Source: Clostridium sp.
GTDB lineage: Bacteria; Bacillota; Clostridia; Lachnospirales; Lachnospiraceae
Length of the DNA stretch: 45,313 bases
Assembly: GCA_023663815.1 (NCBI GenBank)
Contig: JAMPGS010000006.1
Location: 1-45,313 of the forward strand
Reading direction: 5' to 3'
A program made the position numbers and the translations under genes. The notes under the pieces were generated by a model. It had not been told where the DNA came from, made no database searches, and worked only from the letters and a program-made list of their open reading frames with translations. This document shows positions 1-8,631 of the stretch, piece by piece (the stretch's first letter is position 1; each line of letters begins with the position of its first letter).

Positions 1-1163
1 AGATGAATACGGAAAAGATATTTTTTCAAGAAATCAGGAAAATTATTAAGATTACGCCTTTTTTTAATATGGCTGATAAAAGTTACTCTAGGCCGCTTCC
101 ACCGCATTTCCGCCGCAAAAGAACGATAGATTGCAATTTCCTTCCGAAGGCTTCTCCAGATACGCAGCGGCGTCAGGACGCCGTCGTCAGCATACGCATA
201 TTTTTCATGACGGATAGTTGCACTTACAAGATTTGCATCTCGCACCAACATTCGTTTATAGCTTGCCGTCAATGGAAAATATCTTTCAAATTCCTGCAAA
301 TCAATTAGCTCAGGAAAACACTGCATAAAAATTTTAAGCGTCATGCGGACCCGTTCCGTTGCGTGAAATACCGCAGCTCTGTCTGCAAGGTATTTTAAGT
401 TTATCCCGCCTGCAAATTCCCAGACGCGGCGGCAGTCGTAAAGCCATTGCATCCGGCGTTCAGCGCCTTCCGGCAAAAGATAGTTCCGTACCTGAAAGTA
501 ATTTCGGGACTGATTATCGAGAAGATGTATCAGCATATCCTCCGGTGCGGGAACGCGAACATTAATGCCATGAAAACAAAATGTTTCGGCATGTTCCCAG
601 ATATCAGTGGAGCGTTCTCCATATGTTTTAAAAATCCAGCGGTGTAAGTCTATTTCGTCGCGAGCTCCTTTTATTGCGGCAGAGTGCGGATATTCTCCCA
701 TAAGGGTATTTTCGCCGGTCAAAAGCAACGGCAGAGCACGCTCAAAATCTGCGTTTGGAACCGCAATATCATAATCCCACATTAGTCTTGGTTTATCGGG
801 CGCATAGTATGCCAGCATAGCAATGCCTTTAAGCAGCATTACAGGAATCCCATTATCAGTAAGGACTTGAAGCTGCTGAAGGAGCCATGGGATACCCATA
901 CTATTATGGATATGATGGTAGTAGTGTACGCCTTTTAGTCTTGGCTGTATCTCCGGCGGGAAATATTTCCAGCCTTTTGTGTATCCCAAACAGGAAAGCA
1001 TTAAAATATAGTTTTGGTTTGCTGTATCTAAATCAAGATTATCTAAAAGAACATGCGCGGAGTTTTCTGTCAATTTTCCGCTAAACAATAGCGACATTAG
1101 GCATTTTTCGCGCGGCGATAAGATGTTTTTATTCAGTTGCTCTTCTATATACATTGCATCCAT
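1..1163 (-). CDS. Nucleotidyltransferase-family protein, 3' end cut by window edge
   Basis: The minus-strand frame is open from ATG at 1163 to the left edge, about 387 codons with no stop, so the C-terminus lies outside the window. About a quarter of the way in, the protein has the run GIPVMLLKGIAML, then an acidic pair in MWDYDIAVP, then a helix-rich region with EIDLHRW. This is the pattern of the uncharacterised nucleotidyltransferase family PF14907 (lysine-glycine run, then a D-x-D metal site, here DYD). Members transfer nucleotides to unknown acceptors; some accompany lasso-peptide or glycan clusters. A GGAG lies about 11 bases upstream of the ATG; a second in-frame ATG at 1154 is possible. 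It is transcribed divergently from the PP-loop operon, so a shared role is inference. Family call fairly sure, function unknown. Confidence 0.75.
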   Translation of the reverse strand, partial: MDAMYIEEQLNKNILSPREKCLMSLLFSGKLTENSAHVLLDNLDLDTANQNYILMLSCLGYTKGWKYFPPEIQPRLKGVHYYHHIHNSMGIPWLLQQLQVLTDNGIPVMLLKGIAMLAYYAPDKPRLMWDYDIAVPNADFERALPLLLTGENTLMGEYPHSAAIKGARDEIDLHRWIFKTYGERSTDIWEHAETFCFHGINVRVPAPEDMLIHLLDNQSRNYFQVRNYLLPEGAERRMQWLYDCRRVWEFAGGINLKYLADRAAVFHATERVRMTLKIFMQCFPELIDLQEFERYFPLTASYKRMLVRDANLVSATIRHEKYAYADDGVLTPLRIWRSLRKEIAIYRSFAAEMRWKRPRVTFISHIKKRRNLNNFPDFLKKYLFRIH

Positions 1164-1352: not shown

Positions 1353-1381
1353 TTGTGAATATTCTGAAAAAATGCTATACT
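1353..1381 (+). promoter_or_regulatory. Sigma-A-like promoter of the PP-loop/glycosyltransferase operon
   Basis: TTGTGA at 1353-1358 and TATACT at 1376-1381 are separated by 17 bases. The predicted start point is near 1388, about 57 bases before the first gene. No other convincing promoter is seen until 8633, so genes to 8631 are probably one transcript. Confidence 0.65.
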
Positions 1382-1444: not shown

Positions 1445-2596
1445 ATGTTAAAAATCGGCAAAACTTATATCTTACAGGAAAATGAGAGCGCACGTCTTTG
1501 CTCTAATCTTACAATAGGAGACCGCCATGCCACTCTTTGGTTTCGTGTTAAAAGAGGACAGGCGGATTGGCTGGCATTGGGGCGTGCGGATGCTTTTGTG
1601 ATGGCGCTGCTTCCCTGTGCCATGCGGGAAAAACATGAGATTATCTGTGAAGACCCTTTGTCTGAAAGGCTGTATTATCAGCTTACAGGCAGTTTGATTC
1701 CAGCATTGTCTTCGGTGGGAGAACGCTATCATTCTATTTCAATTACCTGCCCGCTTACAGCAAAGCGGCTGTCAAATGAAGGCGCGGTGGGCACCGGATT
1801 TTCCGGCGGTGTAGACAGTCTTTATACGATTATGCGCCATGGAACAGATAGCGAGCTTCCTTTAACCCATCTTGCGGTTTTTAATACGGGAAACCTTAAA
1901 GACAAAGTTCTTTCTAGGCTTTATGAACAAGCGGAAAAATTTGGGGCAGAACAGGGCTTACAAACGCTCTTTGTCGATACCAATTTTCAGAAAATACTTC
2001 CTGAATTTTATGACGGCATATATACGTTTCGCAATTTAGCCTGCGTCATGGCTTTGCAGGGATTATTTTCGGTTTATCTCGTTTCTTCAGGGCCGGACGC
2101 CGCAAATATGGAATTAGATTTGCTCAAATGCGACCGATATGATTTATTAACGGTAAACTGCGCGGCGACAGAATCCCTTGCTTTTTACTTATCCGGCGTG
2201 GAAACTACCCGCATAGGCAAATTAAAGTCGCTGACAAAATGGGAGCCTTCTTATAGATGGCTGAACCCCTGCATCAGCATAGTGGGGAAAAACAAAAATT
2301 GCGGTCATTGCAAAAAATGTATTCGGGATATGACAGTTCTATATGCCTTAGGGCAGTTAGAACAATATCGCGCGGTTTATGATATTGATGAATATTTCCG
2401 GCATTTGCCGGAACGGTTTGGTTTTATTTTAGCAAGCAGCCTGCATAGCCGTTCTGGAACTCAAACAAAACAGCTTTTAGAGGAATGTAAGATTCCCATC
2501 CCTCCTGCAGCCTATACTTACGCCAGACAATTCCATCTTGCCATGTACAATATTAGAATCAATCAACAGGAAAGGTTTCAATATAATGAACAATGA
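1445..2596 (+). CDS. QueC/ExsB-like PP-loop ATPase paralogue 1
   Basis: A 383-residue protein. The ATP pyrophosphatase P-loop SGGVDS sits at about residues 120-125. A zinc-type cysteine cluster with spacing C-x9-C-x2-C-x2-C (NCGHCKKC) sits at about 275-292; this spacing resembles QueC, the 7-cyano-7-deazaguanine synthase that adenylates a carboxylate and converts it to amide then nitrile. The first 115 residues form a separate module (HATLWF, ALLPCAMRE, ERLYYQL) that also occurs in the two downstream paralogues. The start is ATG 1445 because GGGAG at 1431-1435 is 9 bases away; the in-frame TTG at 1439 is too close. No queuosine genes are nearby, so the substrate is probably not preQ0. Adenylation chemistry is inferred from the P-loop. 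Confidence 0.75.
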   Translation: MLKIGKTYILQENESARLCSNLTIGDRHATLWFRVKRGQADWLALGRADAFVMALLPCAMREKHEIICEDPLSERLYYQLTGSLIPALSSVGERYHSISITCPLTAKRLSNEGAVGTGFSGGVDSLYTIMRHGTDSELPLTHLAVFNTGNLKDKVLSRLYEQAEKFGAEQGLQTLFVDTNFQKILPEFYDGIYTFRNLACVMALQGLFSVYLVSSGPDAANMELDLLKCDRYDLLTVNCAATESLAFYLSGVETTRIGKLKSLTKWEPSYRWLNPCISIVGKNKNCGHCKKCIRDMTVLYALGQLEQYRAVYDIDEYFRHLPERFGFILASSLHSRSGTQTKQLLEECKIPIPPAAYTYARQFHLAMYNIRINQQERFQYNEQ

Positions 2597-3758
2597 AAAA
2601 TATCCTATCATAATAGAAGCTTCTTATTTGGAAAAATCTTCCGACAGGGTAAAATTATGCGCGCAGGTAAATTTTCATGATAAAAAATCGGTTTTGTGGT
2701 TTTCTGTTGATGAAGAATATGGCGAATACTTGACGGACGACCGGTTAGATTCATGGGTTGTAGCGTTACTGACAACCGCCATGCGGGAAGAGCGGGACAT
2801 TATTTGCGAAGCTCCTGTAACCCGACGGCTGATTTATCAATTAAATCATTATCTTATTCCTATGATGGCGGCCAATATGGATGAATTTCATCCAATAACA
2901 ATTCACGCACAAGCTGCCGAAAATAAAATTTCTTGCGCTGGCGCGGTGGGAACCGGCTGGACTGGCGGCGTGGACAGTATGTTTACTTATATGCAGTCGG
3001 TTAAAAAGGCGGAACGCGCGTTGACCCATCTGTTAATTACCAGCAATGGCGCATTGGAAGAAACGGATAACTTTGCAGTATTGAAACAAATGGCGGCTCA
3101 GGTGAAGGAAGGTTTTGCAGCGGAAGCGGGATTAGCGGTGGTTGATGTGGATACAAACCTGCAGGATATACTTTTAGAGCCGTTTCTTGCCGTTGCAGCT
3201 TTTAGGCATGGGGCGGTTGTCTTAGCCTTGCAAAAACTGTTTCATGTTTTTCTCTTTTCCTCTGCTTATGAATTTTCACGTTTTGCATTTGATGCAAATA
3301 ACTCTTTTTACTATGACTTGGCGTCTCTTGGTTGTTTTGAGACAGATAATACGGTTTTTTACTCCGCTGGCGGCGCCTATTCCCGTGCGCAAAAGCTGCA
3401 TGAGCTTTCGTCTTTTCCAATGGCCTACCGTTATCTTCATCCTTGCGTGCATGTAATCAAAGAAAACTGCGGGCGCTGTGGAAAGTGCGTGCGCACAGAG
3501 GCGGCATTGTATGGTTTGGGAACCTTAGAAAAATTTTCAGAGGTATTCGACTTAGATAGGTTTGAACGGGACAAAGATTGGTATTTTGCGCAGGTACTGG
3601 CAAATGAAAAAAGCCAGCATTATGGCGAAGCTCTTGTTTTACTTAAGCAGCGGGGAATTGAATTTTCGCCAGAAGCCCGGCGTATGGCGCGCATGATTCG
3701 CGCGGCAAAAGCGGTAGCAGTTAAAAATAAACAGTTCCTGAGCGAGAATCTTTTATAG
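2586..3758 (+). CDS. QueC/ExsB-like PP-loop ATPase paralogue 2 (divergent)
   Basis: A 390-residue protein; the ATG at 2586 overlaps the previous gene by 11 bases and follows AGGAAAGG, so translation is probably coupled. It keeps the three-gene layout: N-terminal module (SVLWFS, ALLTTAMREE), P-loop, then cysteines. The P-loop is TGGVDS instead of SGGVDS, and the cysteine spacing is shorter, C-x7-C-x2-C-x2-C (NCGRCGKC). The region after the P-loop that reads RNLAC and DAAN in copies 1 and 3 is altered here. All ATP- and zinc-binding elements appear intact, so it is probably an active but differently specialised copy. The substrate is unknown. Confidence 0.72.
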   Translation: MNNEKYPIIIEASYLEKSSDRVKLCAQVNFHDKKSVLWFSVDEEYGEYLTDDRLDSWVVALLTTAMREERDIICEAPVTRRLIYQLNHYLIPMMAANMDEFHPITIHAQAAENKISCAGAVGTGWTGGVDSMFTYMQSVKKAERALTHLLITSNGALEETDNFAVLKQMAAQVKEGFAAEAGLAVVDVDTNLQDILLEPFLAVAAFRHGAVVLALQKLFHVFLFSSAYEFSRFAFDANNSFYYDLASLGCFETDNTVFYSAGGAYSRAQKLHELSSFPMAYRYLHPCVHVIKENCGRCGKCVRTEAALYGLGTLEKFSEVFDLDRFERDKDWYFAQVLANEKSQHYGEALVLLKQRGIEFSPEARRMARMIRAAKAVAVKNKQFLSENLL

Positions 3759-3794
3759 AAAAAGCTGGCAATTGAGAAAGAACAGAGTTAAATT

Positions 3795-4934
3795 ATGGTG
3801 CGGATAGGGAAAACATACATTGATTGGAAAGATGATAAAGCGTATCTCTGCTCAGATATAGTGATTGATAGGCATAAAACAACGCTATGGTTTGCGGTAA
3901 ACCGGACGCAGGCAGGTTATTTATCTGCAGGCGCTGCAGATTCGTTTGTAACAGCGCTTTTGCCATGCGCTATGCGGGAAAATCATGAGATAATATGCGA
4001 AGAGAGTATGTCGGAACGGCTGTACTACCAGTTAAACGGTTCCTTGATTCCCACATTAAGCTTTGCAGGAGAAATTTATCATCCGATTCAAATTAAAGCG
4101 CCATTAGCGGCTAAACCTATGGAAAATGTGGGGGCGGTAGGCGCTGGATTTTCAGGCGGCGTTGATTCTTTATATACAATTATGCGCCATAATGAACAAA
4201 GTGAATATCCGTTGACGCATATAGCCGTATTTAATTCAGGCGTTTTTGAAGGTTTAAAATACAAGGATTTTTTTGTTGAAAGCTGTAAGCGGGCCGAGTA
4301 TTTTGCAAAGGAGCAAAACCTAAAAACAATTTTTGTAGATACTAATTTTCAGGAAGTTCTGCCGGAGCGTTTTCTTGACGTGTATTCTTTCAGGAATCTT
4401 GCGTGCGCCCTCGCGTTGCAGAGATTATTTTCGGTATACTTGCTTTCATCGGGCCATGATGCCGCAAATTTCACTTTAAATCTTAGAAATGCGGCGTCTT
4501 TCGATTTGCTTACCGTCAATTATATTTCTACAGAAACCACTTCTTTTTACCTTTCAGGCGTGGAGGTAAAGCGCAGGGAAAAGCTTCGTTTGCTTGCAGA
4601 ATGGGAGCCGTCATGGAAATGGCTTCATCCTTGTATTTATGGGCTTGCAGGAGATTATAATTGCGGGCATTGTAAAAAATGCACGCGGGACCAGACAACG
4701 CTTTACGCAATGGGAAAATTGGATAGGTATGGGAATATTTTTGATATAAAACAGTATAAGAAATATTTTTCTCAAAGGCTGGCTTTTGTTTTTGCGAATC
4801 GCGGGAATCATCTTTTTGATGAAACGATAGAGCTTTTAGAAAAACAAAATGTAGCAATCCCAAAGGCCGCCTATCTATATGAAAAACAATTTCGCAAAAG
4901 TATGCAGAATTTAGAGATAAAAAAGGATAATTAA
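3795..4934 (+). CDS. QueC/ExsB-like PP-loop ATPase paralogue 3
   Basis: A 379-residue protein, closely similar by eye to paralogue 1 over its whole length: KTYI near the N-terminus, ALLPCAMRE, SGGVDSLYTIMRH, VDTNFQ, FRNLAC, SSG-DAAN and NCGHCKKC with the same C-x9-C-x2-C-x2-C zinc spacing. It begins at ATG 3795, 36 bases after paralogue 2; the ribosome site (GAGAAAG) is weak and distant. Copies 1 and 3 look like a duplication, with copy 2 an older branch between them. Probable role: ATP-dependent activation or amidation of a carboxylate on a sugar, peptide or metabolite; this is inference from fold and neighbours. Confidence 0.75.
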   Translation: MVRIGKTYIDWKDDKAYLCSDIVIDRHKTTLWFAVNRTQAGYLSAGAADSFVTALLPCAMRENHEIICEESMSERLYYQLNGSLIPTLSFAGEIYHPIQIKAPLAAKPMENVGAVGAGFSGGVDSLYTIMRHNEQSEYPLTHIAVFNSGVFEGLKYKDFFVESCKRAEYFAKEQNLKTIFVDTNFQEVLPERFLDVYSFRNLACALALQRLFSVYLLSSGHDAANFTLNLRNAASFDLLTVNYISTETTSFYLSGVEVKRREKLRLLAEWEPSWKWLHPCIYGLAGDYNCGHCKKCTRDQTTLYAMGKLDRYGNIFDIKQYKKYFSQRLAFVFANRGNHLFDETIELLEKQNVAIPKAAYLYEKQFRKSMQNLEIKKDN

Positions 4935-4957
4935 GCGTCAAGCTTACAGGAGAATAA

Positions 4958-5626
4958 ATGGAAAAAATTTCAGTTATCATTCCCGCTTATAATGCAGAAA
5001 AATATTTGGTGGAAGCGGCGGCGTCTATACAAAATCAAAACTGGAAAGGCGAGATGGAGATTATCATTATCGACGACGGTTCTACCGATAATACGTTGAC
5101 AATTGCAAAAAAAATAGGCGGCATTGTTTTGACAAAAGAAAAAGGAGGGGCCGCTTCCGCACGTAACATGGGGATTCGAAACGCTTCAGGGGAACTGCTC
5201 TTTTTCTTTGATGCAGACGACATAGCCGCTACGGGGGCATTGGAACAATTATATGAACCAATGCTTAGAGATAAGAAATTTTTTGCAGTATTCGGCAAAG
5301 CGCAGGATTTTCTCTCACCAGAGCTTTCTGCCGAGCAAATAAGCCTTTTGCAAATTAGAAAAGAGCCTTACGGCGGCGTTTTGCCGGGATGCGCTTTAAT
5401 TAGACGTGAAGCTTTTGAGAAAATCGGATTATTTGATGAAAGCCTGAAAACAGGGGAGACAGTGGCGTGGCAGATAAATCTTCGGGAAGCAAAACTTCCG
5501 ACTGTAAACATTGATTGCGTGACATTAAATCGAAGATTACATTTAACGAATACCGGCCGTGTAAACAACAGACAGGAGATGCAGGATTATGCCGCAATAT
5601 TGCGCAGGAGGATGAAAAAAGAGTGA
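4958..5626 (+). CDS. Family 2 glycosyltransferase
   Basis: A 222-residue GT-A fold glycosyltransferase. It opens with the family-2 signature ISVIIPAYNA, then the nucleotide-sugar site IIDDGSTDNT and the metal motif FFDADD at about residues 85-90. It is short for the family, lacks membrane segments and ends soon after the catalytic domain. The start is well supported by AGGAGA 5-6 bases before ATG 4958. It would transfer a sugar from an activated donor to an acceptor glycan or small molecule; donor and acceptor cannot be read from the sequence. The gene overlaps the next one by four bases. Confidence 0.85.
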   Translation: MEKISVIIPAYNAEKYLVEAAASIQNQNWKGEMEIIIIDDGSTDNTLTIAKKIGGIVLTKEKGGAASARNMGIRNASGELLFFFDADDIAATGALEQLYEPMLRDKKFFAVFGKAQDFLSPELSAEQISLLQIRKEPYGGVLPGCALIRREAFEKIGLFDESLKTGETVAWQINLREAKLPTVNIDCVTLNRRLHLTNTGRVNNRQEMQDYAAILRRRMKKE

Positions 5627-6501
5627 AGCCGTTAGTATCCCTTGTAACGCCGGTTTATAATGCTATGCCTTATTTTAAAAATTACCTTGACTGTGTGCGG
5701 GAGCAAACATGGAGGCCGCTGGAATTCATTGTTGTAGACGACGGTTCTGCAGACGGTTCGTGGGAATACCTTCAATCAGTGATACCGCAGTTGGAAAAAG
5801 ACGCTGTTTTTGTAAACGCTTTGCGAAGGGAGCATGAAAGTCAATCAGCAGCCATTAATGCCGCGTTACCGTTAATTTCCGGCGATTTTTTTACATGGTG
5901 CGACGCGGATGACCTGATGGCGGCGGAGAGCATTGAAAAAAAAGTAGAATTTTTAATTTCGCATAAAGATTTAGGAATGGTTCGCAGCGACGGATTTTAT
6001 TTGGATGGCGATTCCGGAGATATCATTTCTCACAGTGCAAAAAAAGAGGACGCATTTACGCAGAATGTGTTTGATGCGCTTTTTTATGGACAGACCTATT
6101 GCTATGCAGGCTGTTATATGCTCCGCACAGAATTGTTTTTTGAGTGTTATCCTCAAAAACAAATCCCCTTGTCTAAAGAAGGACAAAATCTTCAGCTTTT
6201 GCTGCCGCCGGCCAGCAGGACGGATTGCGGATTTCTGCCGGAAGCGCTGCATTTTTATTATCAGCGCAGCAGCGGCCATTCCCACAGAAAACGCAGTTAT
6301 ATGGAAAGCTTATCGAGAATTGAAAATTTTTATAAACTGCGTTCCGCTATTTTACCTTTTTGCGCATGTGATTACCAGTATTATATGAAAGAAAATAATG
6401 ATATATTAAAAAGTGATAAACAACGGTTATATCGTTTGGCGGCTGCTTTAGCAAGAGAGGAGTTTAAGAAAAATGAAGGCGGGTATTCTTACCTTTCATG
6501 A
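5623..6501 (+). CDS. Family 2 glycosyltransferase
   Basis: A 292-residue GT-A glycosyltransferase that begins with GTG at 5623, overlapping the stop of the previous gene (GTGA). AGGAGG at about 5607 decides this start; the frame is open further upstream to 5515, but that part lies inside the preceding gene. Motifs in order are VSLVTPVYNA, VVDDGSADGS and the metal motif WCDADD, all within the first 105 residues. The remainder carries the acceptor-side region (HFYYQRSSGHS). It is paralogous in fold, not in detail, to its neighbour, so the two may add successive sugars. The specificity is unknown. Confidence 0.85.
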   Translation: MKPLVSLVTPVYNAMPYFKNYLDCVREQTWRPLEFIVVDDGSADGSWEYLQSVIPQLEKDAVFVNALRREHESQSAAINAALPLISGDFFTWCDADDLMAAESIEKKVEFLISHKDLGMVRSDGFYLDGDSGDIISHSAKKEDAFTQNVFDALFYGQTYCYAGCYMLRTELFFECYPQKQIPLSKEGQNLQLLLPPASRTDCGFLPEALHFYYQRSSGHSHRKRSYMESLSRIENFYKLRSAILPFCACDYQYYMKENNDILKSDKQRLYRLAAALAREEFKKNEGGYSYLS

Positions 6502-7528
6502 AGCTGATAGTTATGGCGCGGTACTTCAGGCGTACGCTTTACAGAAAGCATTGATGAATTTAGGGGTTGAAAGTGATTTTATTACTTTTAAGGATGAAAC
6601 ATCAAAGAAGCAATCAGCCGCTTCAGGGAAAGTGGGCGCGTTAGACAATCTGCTGCGTGAAAAAAATGCAGCGCGTAAATTGCTTTTTGATGAGTTTCGG
6701 AAAAATTATCTGAAATGCACCGCCCCGCTTGAAAAACAAGAAGCGGATGATTTAAATGAGAAATATGATTTGTTTATTGCAGGAAGCGACCAAATATGGA
6801 ACTTTTCTTCCCCGGCAGTTGACGGGAGATATTTTCTTCCGTTTGCAGCGCCGAATAAGCGTTTTTCTTACGCTGCATCTTTTGGAGGAAATGAAATTCC
6901 AGATAAAATGAGGGAGTGGTGCATACGGCAATTGAATACTTTTCATGCGATTTCAGTTAGGGAAAAAGAAGGGCAGGAGATATTGCGCGCGCTTATCGGC
7001 CGGGATAGTATTGTATGTGTGGATCCGGTCTTTCTTTTAGAACGTTCCCAGTGGAGAAATTTAACCTATCAAATTGAAGGAAAATCATATATTTTATTAT
7101 ATTTACTGCAATATGACAAGCAAACCATAGATTTTGCAAAAAAGATGGCGGTTGAGAAAGGGATTGAACTTCGGATTGTTACGGCCAGTTTTATGTATGC
7201 CTGCGGTTTTGAACCATGGTGCAATATTGGCGTGGAAGAGTGGCTTTCCCTGATAAATTGCGCGGAATGTGTTGTTACGAATTCTTTTCATGGAATAGCC
7301 TTTTCCATGATTTTTGAACGCCCGTTTTCCTTTACAAAATTAAAGGATAATTTGAAAAAAAGAAATGGACGAATAGAAGAGCTGTTGAAAAAGGCAGGCG
7401 TGGAAAAATGGGAAGAAGGACAAATTTTATATCTTTCTGAACAAGAATTCATGACGCATATGGATGAACAGAAAAAACATTCGTATGATTATCTGCAAGA
7501 AATAATTAATGTTTCATGCTATGCTTGA
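6473..7528 (+). CDS. Polysaccharide pyruvyl transferase family protein
   Basis: A 351-residue protein of the CsaB/PF04230 family, recognised by the N-terminal GILTFHEADSYGAVLQAYAL, the central LFIAGSDQIWN, the run FSYAASFGG and the C-terminal TNSFHGIAFS. CsaB-type enzymes ketalise pyruvate from phosphoenolpyruvate onto cell-wall or exopolysaccharide sugars. The NYGA-type opening followed by GSDQIWN is typical of the subgroup often coupled with FrhB-like iron-sulfur proteins, as here. ATG 6473 is preceded by AGGAG and overlaps the upstream gene by 29 bases. The acceptor is unknown; a pyruvyl role is family knowledge, not proved. Confidence 0.85.
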   Translation: MKAGILTFHEADSYGAVLQAYALQKALMNLGVESDFITFKDETSKKQSAASGKVGALDNLLREKNAARKLLFDEFRKNYLKCTAPLEKQEADDLNEKYDLFIAGSDQIWNFSSPAVDGRYFLPFAAPNKRFSYAASFGGNEIPDKMREWCIRQLNTFHAISVREKEGQEILRALIGRDSIVCVDPVFLLERSQWRNLTYQIEGKSYILLYLLQYDKQTIDFAKKMAVEKGIELRIVTASFMYACGFEPWCNIGVEEWLSLINCAECVVTNSFHGIAFSMIFERPFSFTKLKDNLKKRNGRIEELLKKAGVEKWEEGQILYLSEQEFMTHMDEQKKHSYDYLQEIINVSCYA

Positions 7529-7557
7529 AATTTATAATAAAAGGGTTGAATTTGGAT

Positions 7558-8631
7558 ATGAAAGGTAATAAAAAGAGTTGTTTTGGGTGTGGTAGCTGCT
7601 GCGCAGCCTGCAAGGCTGGGGCAATAACCATGCAGCAGGATGAAGAGGGATTTTTCTACCCTGTCATTGATTCTAAACGATGCATAAATTGCGGGGCATG
7701 TGAAAATGTATGTCCGACAAAACAGCATTTAAGCCGTGTGGAAAGCAAATTTTATGCGGTTCGCTGTAATGATGAAGCCCTGCTAAAAAAAAGTACGTCG
7801 GGAGGCGCGTTTTCTCTAATTGCGCAGGAAGTATTAGAACAGGGCGGGCTTGTCTGCGGAGCGTGTTTTGATGATAAATTTTATGTAAAGCATATTCTAT
7901 CGGAAAATATTGAAGGTATGCGCAAATCAAAATACGTGCAAAGCGATATGGGAGGGTGCTTTGCTTCTATTCAAAATGCGCTTAATGAGAATAGACAAGT
8001 ACTTTTTAGCGGAACCCCCTGCCAATGCCACGCTTTAAAGCTATTTATTAAGGAAAACGAGGATAAACTTATTTTAGCGTCGCTTGTCTGTCGTGGCGTG
8101 CAGTCGCCGGGATTATGGGAAAGTTATACCAAATGGCTTGGCCGCAACGCCTCTTTGCAGGCATATGATTTTCGAGATAAACGGTTTTTAAATGACGCGC
8201 ATACAATAGCCTATACGATTGGCAGTACAGAAATTACTGCTCCGTGGGGAAAGGATGAATTTAGCCGGATATACAGTAAATGTCTTACGTATCGTCCGAG
8301 CTGCTATTCATGCCCTTATTGTGACCCTGATATTGATTTTGATTTTACAATAGGAGACTTTTGGGGGATTGATAACGTTTGTTCTGAGCTTGCAGATGGG
8401 AAGGGAGCGTCCCTCGTGATTGCGCGGGGAAAAAAGGCGGGAAAATTGATGAATAGGATATCTTCAAAAGCGCGGGTTGTGCCGTGCAGTAGAGAGGATT
8501 CCATGCAGCCAGCCTTGATGGAACCGGCGAAAGAAAGTATTCTCCGCAAATTTTTATTTAATGATTATAATAAAAAAGACTTTGAAGGAGATTGTAATAT
8601 TCCGCTAATTTTAAAAAAATACGGGGCTTAA
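7558..8631 (+). CDS. FrhB-like iron-sulfur protein (coenzyme F420 hydrogenase beta family)
   Basis: About 357 residues. The N-terminus has two ferredoxin-type four-cysteine motifs, CFGCGSCCAAC and CINCGACENVCP, for two 4Fe-4S clusters. The FrhB/FdhB N and C domains follow: KSTSGGAFS, the diagnostic FSGTPCQC, a further cysteine set (CLTYRPSCYSCPYC) and IGDFWGI. Related proteins next to pyruvyl-transferase-family genes are presumed flavin and iron-sulfur redox enzymes in glycan synthesis; they need not use F420. The start is taken as ATG 7558, though TTG 7552, with AAAGGG about 7 bases upstream, is a real alternative; an upstream ATG at 7516 lies inside the previous gene. It is the last gene of the cassette. 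Confidence 0.85.
   Translation: MKGNKKSCFGCGSCCAACKAGAITMQQDEEGFFYPVIDSKRCINCGACENVCPTKQHLSRVESKFYAVRCNDEALLKKSTSGGAFSLIAQEVLEQGGLVCGACFDDKFYVKHILSENIEGMRKSKYVQSDMGGCFASIQNALNENRQVLFSGTPCQCHALKLFIKENEDKLILASLVCRGVQSPGLWESYTKWLGRNASLQAYDFRDKRFLNDAHTIAYTIGSTEITAPWGKDEFSRIYSKCLTYRPSCYSCPYCDPDIDFDFTIGDFWGIDNVCSELADGKGASLVIARGKKAGKLMNRISSKARVVPCSREDSMQPALMEPAKESILRKFLFNDYNKKDFEGDCNIPLILKKYGA

Follow-up and report, generated by a model that had tools for sequence, protein, structure and literature searches.

Gene clusters for linear polyphosphorylated peptides (LPP), a kind of RiPP (ribosomally synthesised and post-translationally modified peptide), have in common a RiPP recognition element (RRE), an HprK-like kinase, a nucleoside triphosphate (NTP) transferase and an MsbA-like transporter, and lie in glycosyltransferase-rich loci; the kinase phosphorylates serine, and removal of the NTP transferase gene was without effect in the host used (PMC13381572). 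For the lasso peptide pseudomycoidin, the kinase PsmK phosphorylates serine and the nucleotidyltransferase PsmN is needed for the addition of a hexose (PMC9266682). Lasso clusters of rumen Butyrivibrio bring together a nucleotidyltransferase, an HPr kinase/phosphorylase and a family 2 glycosyltransferase (GT2), often with a PqqD protein (PMC7533575), and in a further RiPP cluster the asparagine synthetase-like enzyme PesC turns a peptide carboxylate into an amide and a nitrile via adenylation (PMC13060819, preprint). Here we describe a locus of Clostridium sp. (Lachnospiraceae; GenBank assembly GCA_023663815.1, contig JAMPGS010000006.1, positions 1 to 45,313, this whole stretch of 45,313 nucleotides being called the window) in which genes for three QueC-like PP-loop proteins (PP1 to PP3), two GT2 enzymes, a polysaccharide pyruvyl transferase family protein (PST, PF04230) and an FrhB-like protein stand next to a divergent PF14907 gene. 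We read it tentatively, at somewhat short of an even chance, as a two-operon RiPP-type cluster related to the LPP and paeninodin systems, which would build a peptide-directed glycan and whose PP enzymes would adenylate a carboxylate. PsmN and LppN are presumably PF14907 proteins, and QueC acts by adenylation with an amide or nitrile as the outcome. No described system with this combination was found in the literature searched (open-licence papers), in agreement with an earlier reading of the window made from its letters alone (the sequence-only reading).

The seven genes that the sequence-only reading had grouped into an operon at 1445 to 8631 are all present there and closely packed, with four junctions overlapping by 4 to 29 bases and the other two leaving gaps of 36 and 23 bases. 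The start codons were selected by the analyst, PP1 having an alternative TTG start at 1439. That extent was nevertheless too short, as the divergent PF14907 gene at 3 to 1163 belongs to the cluster. The features are:

3 to 1163, minus strand: nucleotidyltransferase-like gene of PF14907 (NTP_transf_5), truncated where the contig ends and apparently completed on contig C55 (PF14907, E 1.2e-21)
1164 to 1444, no strand: intergenic region between what are most likely two divergent operons, with promoter-like sites on both strands
1445 to 2596, plus strand: PP1, QueC-like PP-loop protein, class A (P-loop, Cys cluster, tree, profile–profile comparison)
2586 to 3758, plus strand: PP2, QueC-like PP-loop protein, class B (P-loop, Cys cluster, tree, profile–profile comparison); counterpart fused to GT_A in L009
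3795 to 4934, plus strand: PP3, QueC-like PP-loop protein, class A (P-loop, Cys cluster, tree, profile–profile comparison)
4958 to 5626, plus strand: GT_A, GT2 glycosyltransferase (PF00535, E 1.4e-33); counterparts in L009 to L011 at 53–59%
5623 to 6501, plus strand: GT_B, GT2 glycosyltransferase (PF00535, E 8e-22); counterparts in L010 and L011 at 53–55%
6473 to 7528, plus strand: PST, polysaccharide pyruvyl transferase family (PF04230, E 2.7e-34)
7516 to 8631, plus strand: FrhB-like iron–sulfur protein (PF04432, FrhB_FdhB_C, E 3.8e-15; PF04422; 4Fe-4S domains)

Both the PST (119.8 bits against PF04230, cut-off 25.3, pyruvyl transfer itself being predicted) and the FrhB-like protein (56.5 bits against PF04432, cut-off 23.3) score above the family cut-offs, and with the GT2 genes they bear out the glycan-type neighbourhood described earlier. 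As an account of the whole system, however, a glycan-enzyme operon fell short: it missed a RiPP-type core of PF14907 protein, HprK-like kinase and tail-bearing PqqD, and with this core the class of system changes.

The rest of the core appears to lie on contig C55 of the same genome, which begins with a gene for an HprK-like kinase followed by one for PqqD. The reverse-complemented window overlaps C55 by 10 bases and the PF14907 frame is open across the join, where it adds ten residues before a TGA stop that overlaps the ATGA start of the kinase gene. The same order, PF14907-like genes followed by HprK and PqqD, is found in L011, a related locus, and the PF14907 protein of the window is 38% identical to that encoded at L009:1434–2612. 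Given the overlap with its open frame and the agreement with L011, the locus most likely consists of two divergent operons, PF14907-HprK-PqqD and PP1-PP2-PP3-GT_A-GT_B-PST-FrhB. Promoter-like sites between them at 1353–1381 (+) and 1322–1294 (−) each have TG before the second hexamer, a weak signal with 25 sites in the scanned region against 18.0 ± 4.5 in shuffles. The PqqD of the window genome was recognised through its 64% identity to that of L009. The His, Lys, Asp and Asp residues of the HprK-like kinases are invariant in four aligned sequences and were located by eye in the kinase of the window genome; a pattern search for them matched 4 of 7. Further along C55 there is an ABC (ATP-binding cassette) transporter gene (3702–5402) and then an exopolysaccharide-type region (20 of 39.7 kb read). 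This region (L027:7735–10524) has another PST-FrhB pair and, adjoining it, an AMP-binding enzyme together with a 79-residue carrier-like and a 372-residue membrane-type protein (these two assigned by eye), an arrangement that resembles a locus for an acylated exopolysaccharide. Beyond the 3′ end of the PP operon there are housekeeping genes (U32 peptidase, FtsW/RodA, a penicillin-binding protein, later RecG, topoisomerase subunits and others among the open reading frames (ORFs) scanned), which places the end of the cluster at about 8631.

The set recurs in three other loci (L009, L010 and L011), each from a Clostridia metagenome-assembled genome with the whole set on one contig (L009 without GT_B). 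The best matches of PP, GT_A, PST and FrhB are found together in all three at 45–59% identity, with the extra PP copies at 39–42% and GT_B in L010 and L011 only; since these best matches recur jointly, the association of the seven genes is more than chance. The PF14907-like, HprK-like and PqqD genes adjoin the PP, GT_A, PST and FrhB genes in each. The order PqqD-GT2-PP(2–3)-GT_A-GT_B-PST-FrhB-ABC is contiguous in L010 and L011, with an ABC exporter gene directly 3′ of FrhB, and L009 has a rearranged version lacking GT_B. The NCBIfam names for this exporter vary, those shown being below cut-off. A second locus in the genome of L009 (L044) has PqqD, GT2, PF14907, HprK-like and GT_B genes as well as three PP genes, of which one is interrupted and another is short. 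The three-copy arrangement is shared by L010 (three in a row), L009 (three, one fused to GT_A) and L044, while L011 has two PP genes. Beside the first PF14907-like gene there is a second one at L009:205–1308, L010:6680–7819 (−) and L011:6849–7877, whose Pfam match is below cut-off or missing and which by eye lacks the K-G and D-x-D residues. We take these residues to be those of the active site, so that each of the three loci may pair an active copy with one that is possibly inactive.

PqqD carries a near-invariant C-terminal tail, DP(I/V)H(D/E)(V/I)...GWP, present in 11 loci, one of them cyanobacterial. When ten of these proteins are aligned, 9 of the 13 invariant columns fall within the tail (F, L, D, P, H, V, G, W, P), and in the eleventh (L073) two of the nine residues are changed by eye, L to E and V to I. 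Over the 25 pairs formed by five PP-cluster and five other PqqD proteins the 24-residue tail averages 54% identity and the domain 22%, a contrast that applies among tail-bearing proteins as the five others were found using tail-containing profiles. For the tail codons of the five PP-cluster PqqD proteins, 109 of 152 differing comparisons are synonymous, the pairs not being independent. An HprK-like gene accompanies the tail in all 11 loci and a PF14907 gene lies on the same stretch in 10, the one remaining being the window genome, where it is reached through the join. Six of the eleven stretches contain no PP gene (L028, L029, L030, L031, L073 and a Crinalium epipsammum plasmid, annotated with a PqqD family protein, a nucleotidyltransferase family protein and an HPr kinase). 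As these six keep the trio and a glycosyltransferase, tail-PqqD, kinase, PF14907 protein and glycosyltransferase look like a core to which PP, PST and FrhB are an added module. Smaller systems of tail-PqqD, HprK-like, PF14907 and glycosyltransferase genes (L028, L029, L030, L031, L073 and L046) come from the class or phylum of the window and from Crinalium epipsammum. One protein of L031 combines an HprK-like part with two GT2 domains, and similar proteins are encoded in L029 and L030. A survey of the class with one PqqD profile (A5) gave 5 of 391 genomes, all with the tail, and a wider profile (A6) gave 15 of 398 genomes of the phylum, of which only the window genome (G000) and G630 match through the tail; both counts include the window genome. 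The PqqD proteins also match the lasso RRE TbiB1 by profile with an E of 9e-4. None of four tail strings was found in the open-licence papers searched.

The three PP proteins share a P-loop (SGGVDS in PP1 and PP3, TGGVDS in PP2) and a cysteine cluster predicted to bind zinc, C(x)9CxxCxxC in PP1 and PP3 and C(x)7CxxCxxC in PP2, a spacing that differs from the C(x)8CxxCxxC zinc motif of the QueC family; C(x)6–10CxxCxxC is found in 14 of 15 PP sequences. PP1 is 55% identical to PP3 and 36% to PP2. Their kinship to QueC is seen at the level of profiles: an alignment of 19 PP proteins matched one of 19 QueC proteins with a probability of 93.9% over 193 columns, from the P-loop through the Cys cluster, compared with 81.5% for LarE, 39% for MnmA and 3% for AsnB, an uneven contrast as these control profiles were built from 4, 4 and 1 sequences, respectively. 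Family alignments were used since hhalign against single sequences was too weak. The best PDB profile matches were P-loop stretches of two nitrile synthetase entries and were not significant (E 1.1). No Pfam, NCBIfam or PADLOC model matched PP1 to PP3 above cut-off and PF06508 gave no match at E 1. Compared with the QueC, QatC and Cap9 proteins of PF06508 (PMC13329287), the PP proteins have in common the PP-loop, a C(x)nCxxCxxC cluster and the profile similarity, but they have no PF06508 match, and the canonical motifs YxQxHxxE, VPxRN and YPDC are missing in all 15 PP sequences examined. They also have about 110 additional N-terminal residues relative to QueC. The description "QueC-like" in the sequence-only reading thus holds as remote kinship by profile, and the PP proteins are, on sequence comparison, remote relatives of QueC and not members of PF06508; the hidden Markov model searches that it proposed returned no curated family above cut-off.

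A role as the QueC of queuosine synthesis was ruled out, the canonical motifs being absent. No canonical QueC was found in the genome of the window, which is 93% complete (no match at E 1e-20); three weak PF06508 matches elsewhere in it are by eye of LarE, MnmA and AsnB type. No queuosine or defence partners were seen beside the PP genes, consistent with the earlier remark that queuosine genes are not found nearby. Known defence genes were also considered and rejected, there being no PADLOC match at E 0.1 and no match of PP2 in phage records. The idea that three paralogues carry out serial adenylation is, in that form, not supported by the tree of 21 PP sequences (3 of 18 branches starred). 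PP1 and PP3 fall in a class A (support 97/98, starred), which also contains one or two proteins per cluster and one spirochaete protein, and PP2 falls in a class B (support 94/89, not starred), with one protein each from L009, L010, L011 and the same-genus genome G021. As the window, L009 and L010 each have two class A proteins and one class B protein and L011 has one of each, PP1 to PP3 are better described from the tree as two classes, A well supported and B less so, plus an extra class A copy.

The PP family is rare. Scanning 84,980 species genomes by pattern turned up at least 10 PP loci; PP genes were found in 2 of 60 relatives, in 2 of 398 genomes of the phylum (the window genome counted in both) and in 4 of 72,556 plasmid records, with none in 50,697 phage records. 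In all, 17 PP loci were compared (the window, L009–L018, L032, L037, L038, L043, L044 and L093). PF04230 lies in the same stretch in nine of these (the window, L009, L010, L011, L014, L015, L032, L038 and L093) and was not seen within the stretch in eight (L012, L013, L016, L017, L018, L037, L043 and L044), in four of which (L013, L017, L018 and L043) the PP gene sits at the stretch end. FrhB is present in five (the window, L009, L010, L011 and L032), as is the PqqD/HprK/PF14907 core (the window with C55, L009, L010, L011 and L044). To this extent homologues are scattered without co-occurring genes, an outcome that the sequence-only reading had named as telling against it. A PF04230 gene immediately precedes the PP gene in L014 (Spirochaetales) and on plasmids of Gloeothece verrucosa and G. 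citriformis, and in L015 (Solirubrobacterales) a single frame holds a PP domain (residues 517–799) and a PF04230 match (residues 1056–1225; 31.5 bits, cut-off 25.3), with a second PP domain following in another frame; by eye, roughly the first 490 residues of this long frame resemble a shadow frame. This adjacency in distant bacteria and the arrangement in one frame suggest, short of proof, that the PP and PF04230 enzymes may work together, for example on the carboxylate of a pyruvyl ketal.

Several of the PP relatives have other surroundings. In G021 (L032:10075–12154) an intact class B gene adjoins a class A gene missing its Cys-cluster end, with PST, FrhB and GT2 genes at a distance of a few kb and no PqqD found. 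A plasmid of Paracoccus yeei (L037:11461–13137) encodes a "hypothetical protein" of 558 residues, in which ~170 N-terminal residues precede a PP domain 32% identical to PP2, and its annotated neighbours include no glycan genes. In Parahaliea aestuarii (L016:7702–11086) a PP relative, which matches DUF6395 weakly and below the cut-off, adjoins two ATP-grasp genes (PF14397, RimK-like).

The catalytic steps that we propose draw on the gene content, order, kinship and fusions observed. By analogy with the described systems, the core would recruit a peptide for phosphorylation and sugar addition. Kinase, PF14907 enzyme and GT2 enzymes would be brought by PqqD to a peptide that serves as acceptor, most likely the tail of PqqD itself; there a (phospho)glycan would be started, which the GT2 enzymes would then extend. 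The PF04230 and FrhB enzymes would decorate this glycan, and the PP enzymes would adenylate a carboxylate on the glycan or the tail (Asp/Glu, uronate or pyruvyl ketal), which with ammonia or an amine could give an amide, a nitrile or an amide link. The nearby ABC transporter may export the product. Since no convincing separate precursor was found and the tail is the one conserved peptide, the tail is the likeliest acceptor or carrier. The more specific version, in which PqqD is its own substrate with a phosphate-, Asp- or His-linked glycan on the tail and the QueC-like A/B pair, together with the PF04230 enzyme, converts the carboxylate of a pyruvyl ketal or of a tail residue into an amide, a nitrile or an amide-linked group, we regard as doubtful.

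A number of points weigh against the two-operon, peptide-directed reading. The window genome is a draft and the join to C55 is supported by 10 bases plus the reading frame; the kinase matches are under the Pfam and NCBIfam cut-offs, and Pfam gives no match to the window genome's PqqD at E 0.1. Outside the cassettes, the loci with a tail were retrieved using tail-containing profiles. Neither Ser nor Thr is invariant in the tail, yet Ser is what the described HprK-like RiPP kinases modify; this tells against a simple phosphoserine, so that Asp, His, Trp or a function in docking would be left; moreover a tail this constant would be unusual for a RiPP core, and a docking motif fits equally. No leader peptidase was recognised. 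Twelve of the 17 PP loci lack the PqqD/HprK/PF14907 core within the stretch examined, no PqqD match was found in the whole PP-bearing genomes of L012, L014, L016, G021 and G658, and in L044 the core and the PP genes occur without PST or FrhB. The PF04230 match of L015 was missed by the in-house PST profile (not reaching E 1e-5), and LarE scores fairly well against the PP profile.

It is possible, though on the unlikely side, that PP, PST, FrhB and GT2 instead decorate an ordinary surface polysaccharide, with the PqqD/HprK/PF14907 trio regulating or delivering, the PP enzymes amidating uronic acids or pyruvyl ketals and the tail acting as a docking motif. C55 does run into an exopolysaccharide-type region with its PST-FrhB pair, AMP-binding enzyme and glycosyltransferase genes, the PP genes of G021 lie near PST, FrhB and GT2 with no PqqD found, and the glycan loci that contain PP and PST in Gloeothece and L014 show no trio within the stretch examined. 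Against this, RRE-type proteins bind peptides in described systems, as far as the available accounts go, and the trio, tail and glycosyltransferase genes stay together without PP or PST in L028–L031, L073 and Crinalium, so that the trio appears to have business of its own. Glycan loci also encode N-acetyl-sugar amidotransferases with a PP-loop, those of the WbpG/PseA kind. WbpG is placed in PF06508 (PMC13329287). That the PP proteins are enzymes of this kind, making acetamidino sugars, is nevertheless highly improbable: the PP cysteine pattern is not the CxxC(x)6CxC of that group in the sections available of the source (PMC13329287), nor do the PP proteins match any Pfam or NCBIfam model above cut-off.

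A conventional LPP- or lasso-like RiPP, with the precursor encoded elsewhere or overlooked and PqqD a plain RRE with a docking tail, is improbable too. The RRE-type protein, HprK-like kinase, PF14907 protein and ABC transporter resemble the LPP core, PqqD matches TbiB1, and the rumen Butyrivibrio lasso clusters also have a nucleotidyltransferase, an HPr kinase and GT2 (PMC7533575). The likeness of the trio to that of LPP systems is at the level of kinship, given the sub-threshold kinase matches and the tail on PqqD. The SpI-like peptidase and the precursor with a YxxP leader of the LPP systems (PMC13381572) were not recognised here, no SpI-like peptidase being found among the assigned genes of L009, L010 and L011 (loci only). 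A shared precursor ORF was considered and rejected, as small-ORF matches between loci appear from their coordinates to be shadows inside larger genes. A scan of small frames for the leader motif [YW]xxPx[LVIAFY] in the five cassette loci gave one frame, of 59 residues, ~1.3 kb upstream of the L011 cluster, an unlikely candidate. The lasso peptides paeninodin and pseudomycoidin share with the locus an HprK-like kinase with conserved His, Lys, Asp and Asp and a nucleotidyltransferase gene (PMC9266682), but no lasso macrolactam cyclase or B2 peptidase was recognised among the assigned genes of L009, L010 and L011 or in the window operon, nor any precursor with a C-terminal Ser. The rumen Butyrivibrio clusters are centred on a lasso precursor and cyclase, and PP-loop, PF04230 and FrhB proteins go unmentioned in the available sections of PMC7533575. 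PesC of the nitrilobacillins is likewise an ATP-dependent adenylating enzyme of a RiPP cluster, but it is asparagine synthetase-like and not QueC-like, and the available sections of PMC13060819 mention neither a PqqD/HprK/PF14907 core nor glycan enzymes. What the window system adds to the LPP pattern is the near-invariant PqqD tail and the PP-loop, PF04230 and FrhB proteins.

The locus ties together three poorly known items that recur jointly, the tail-bearing PqqD, the PF14907 enzymes and the QueC-like/PF04230 neighbours, in a small gene set on which the roles of the tail and of the PP pair become testable. Were PqqD to be its own substrate, a recognition domain joined to a nearly constant carrier peptide, the sugar enzymes and not the peptide would be the source of diversity; this would amount to a peptide-primed glycan pathway in Clostridia and a cyanobacterium, and the QueC fold would acquire a new chemistry. 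A carrier role for the tail would extend RiPP biology to glycan priming, and amidation or nitrilation of glycan carboxylates by the PP enzymes would give an extra function to the fold known from queuosine synthesis and phage defence.

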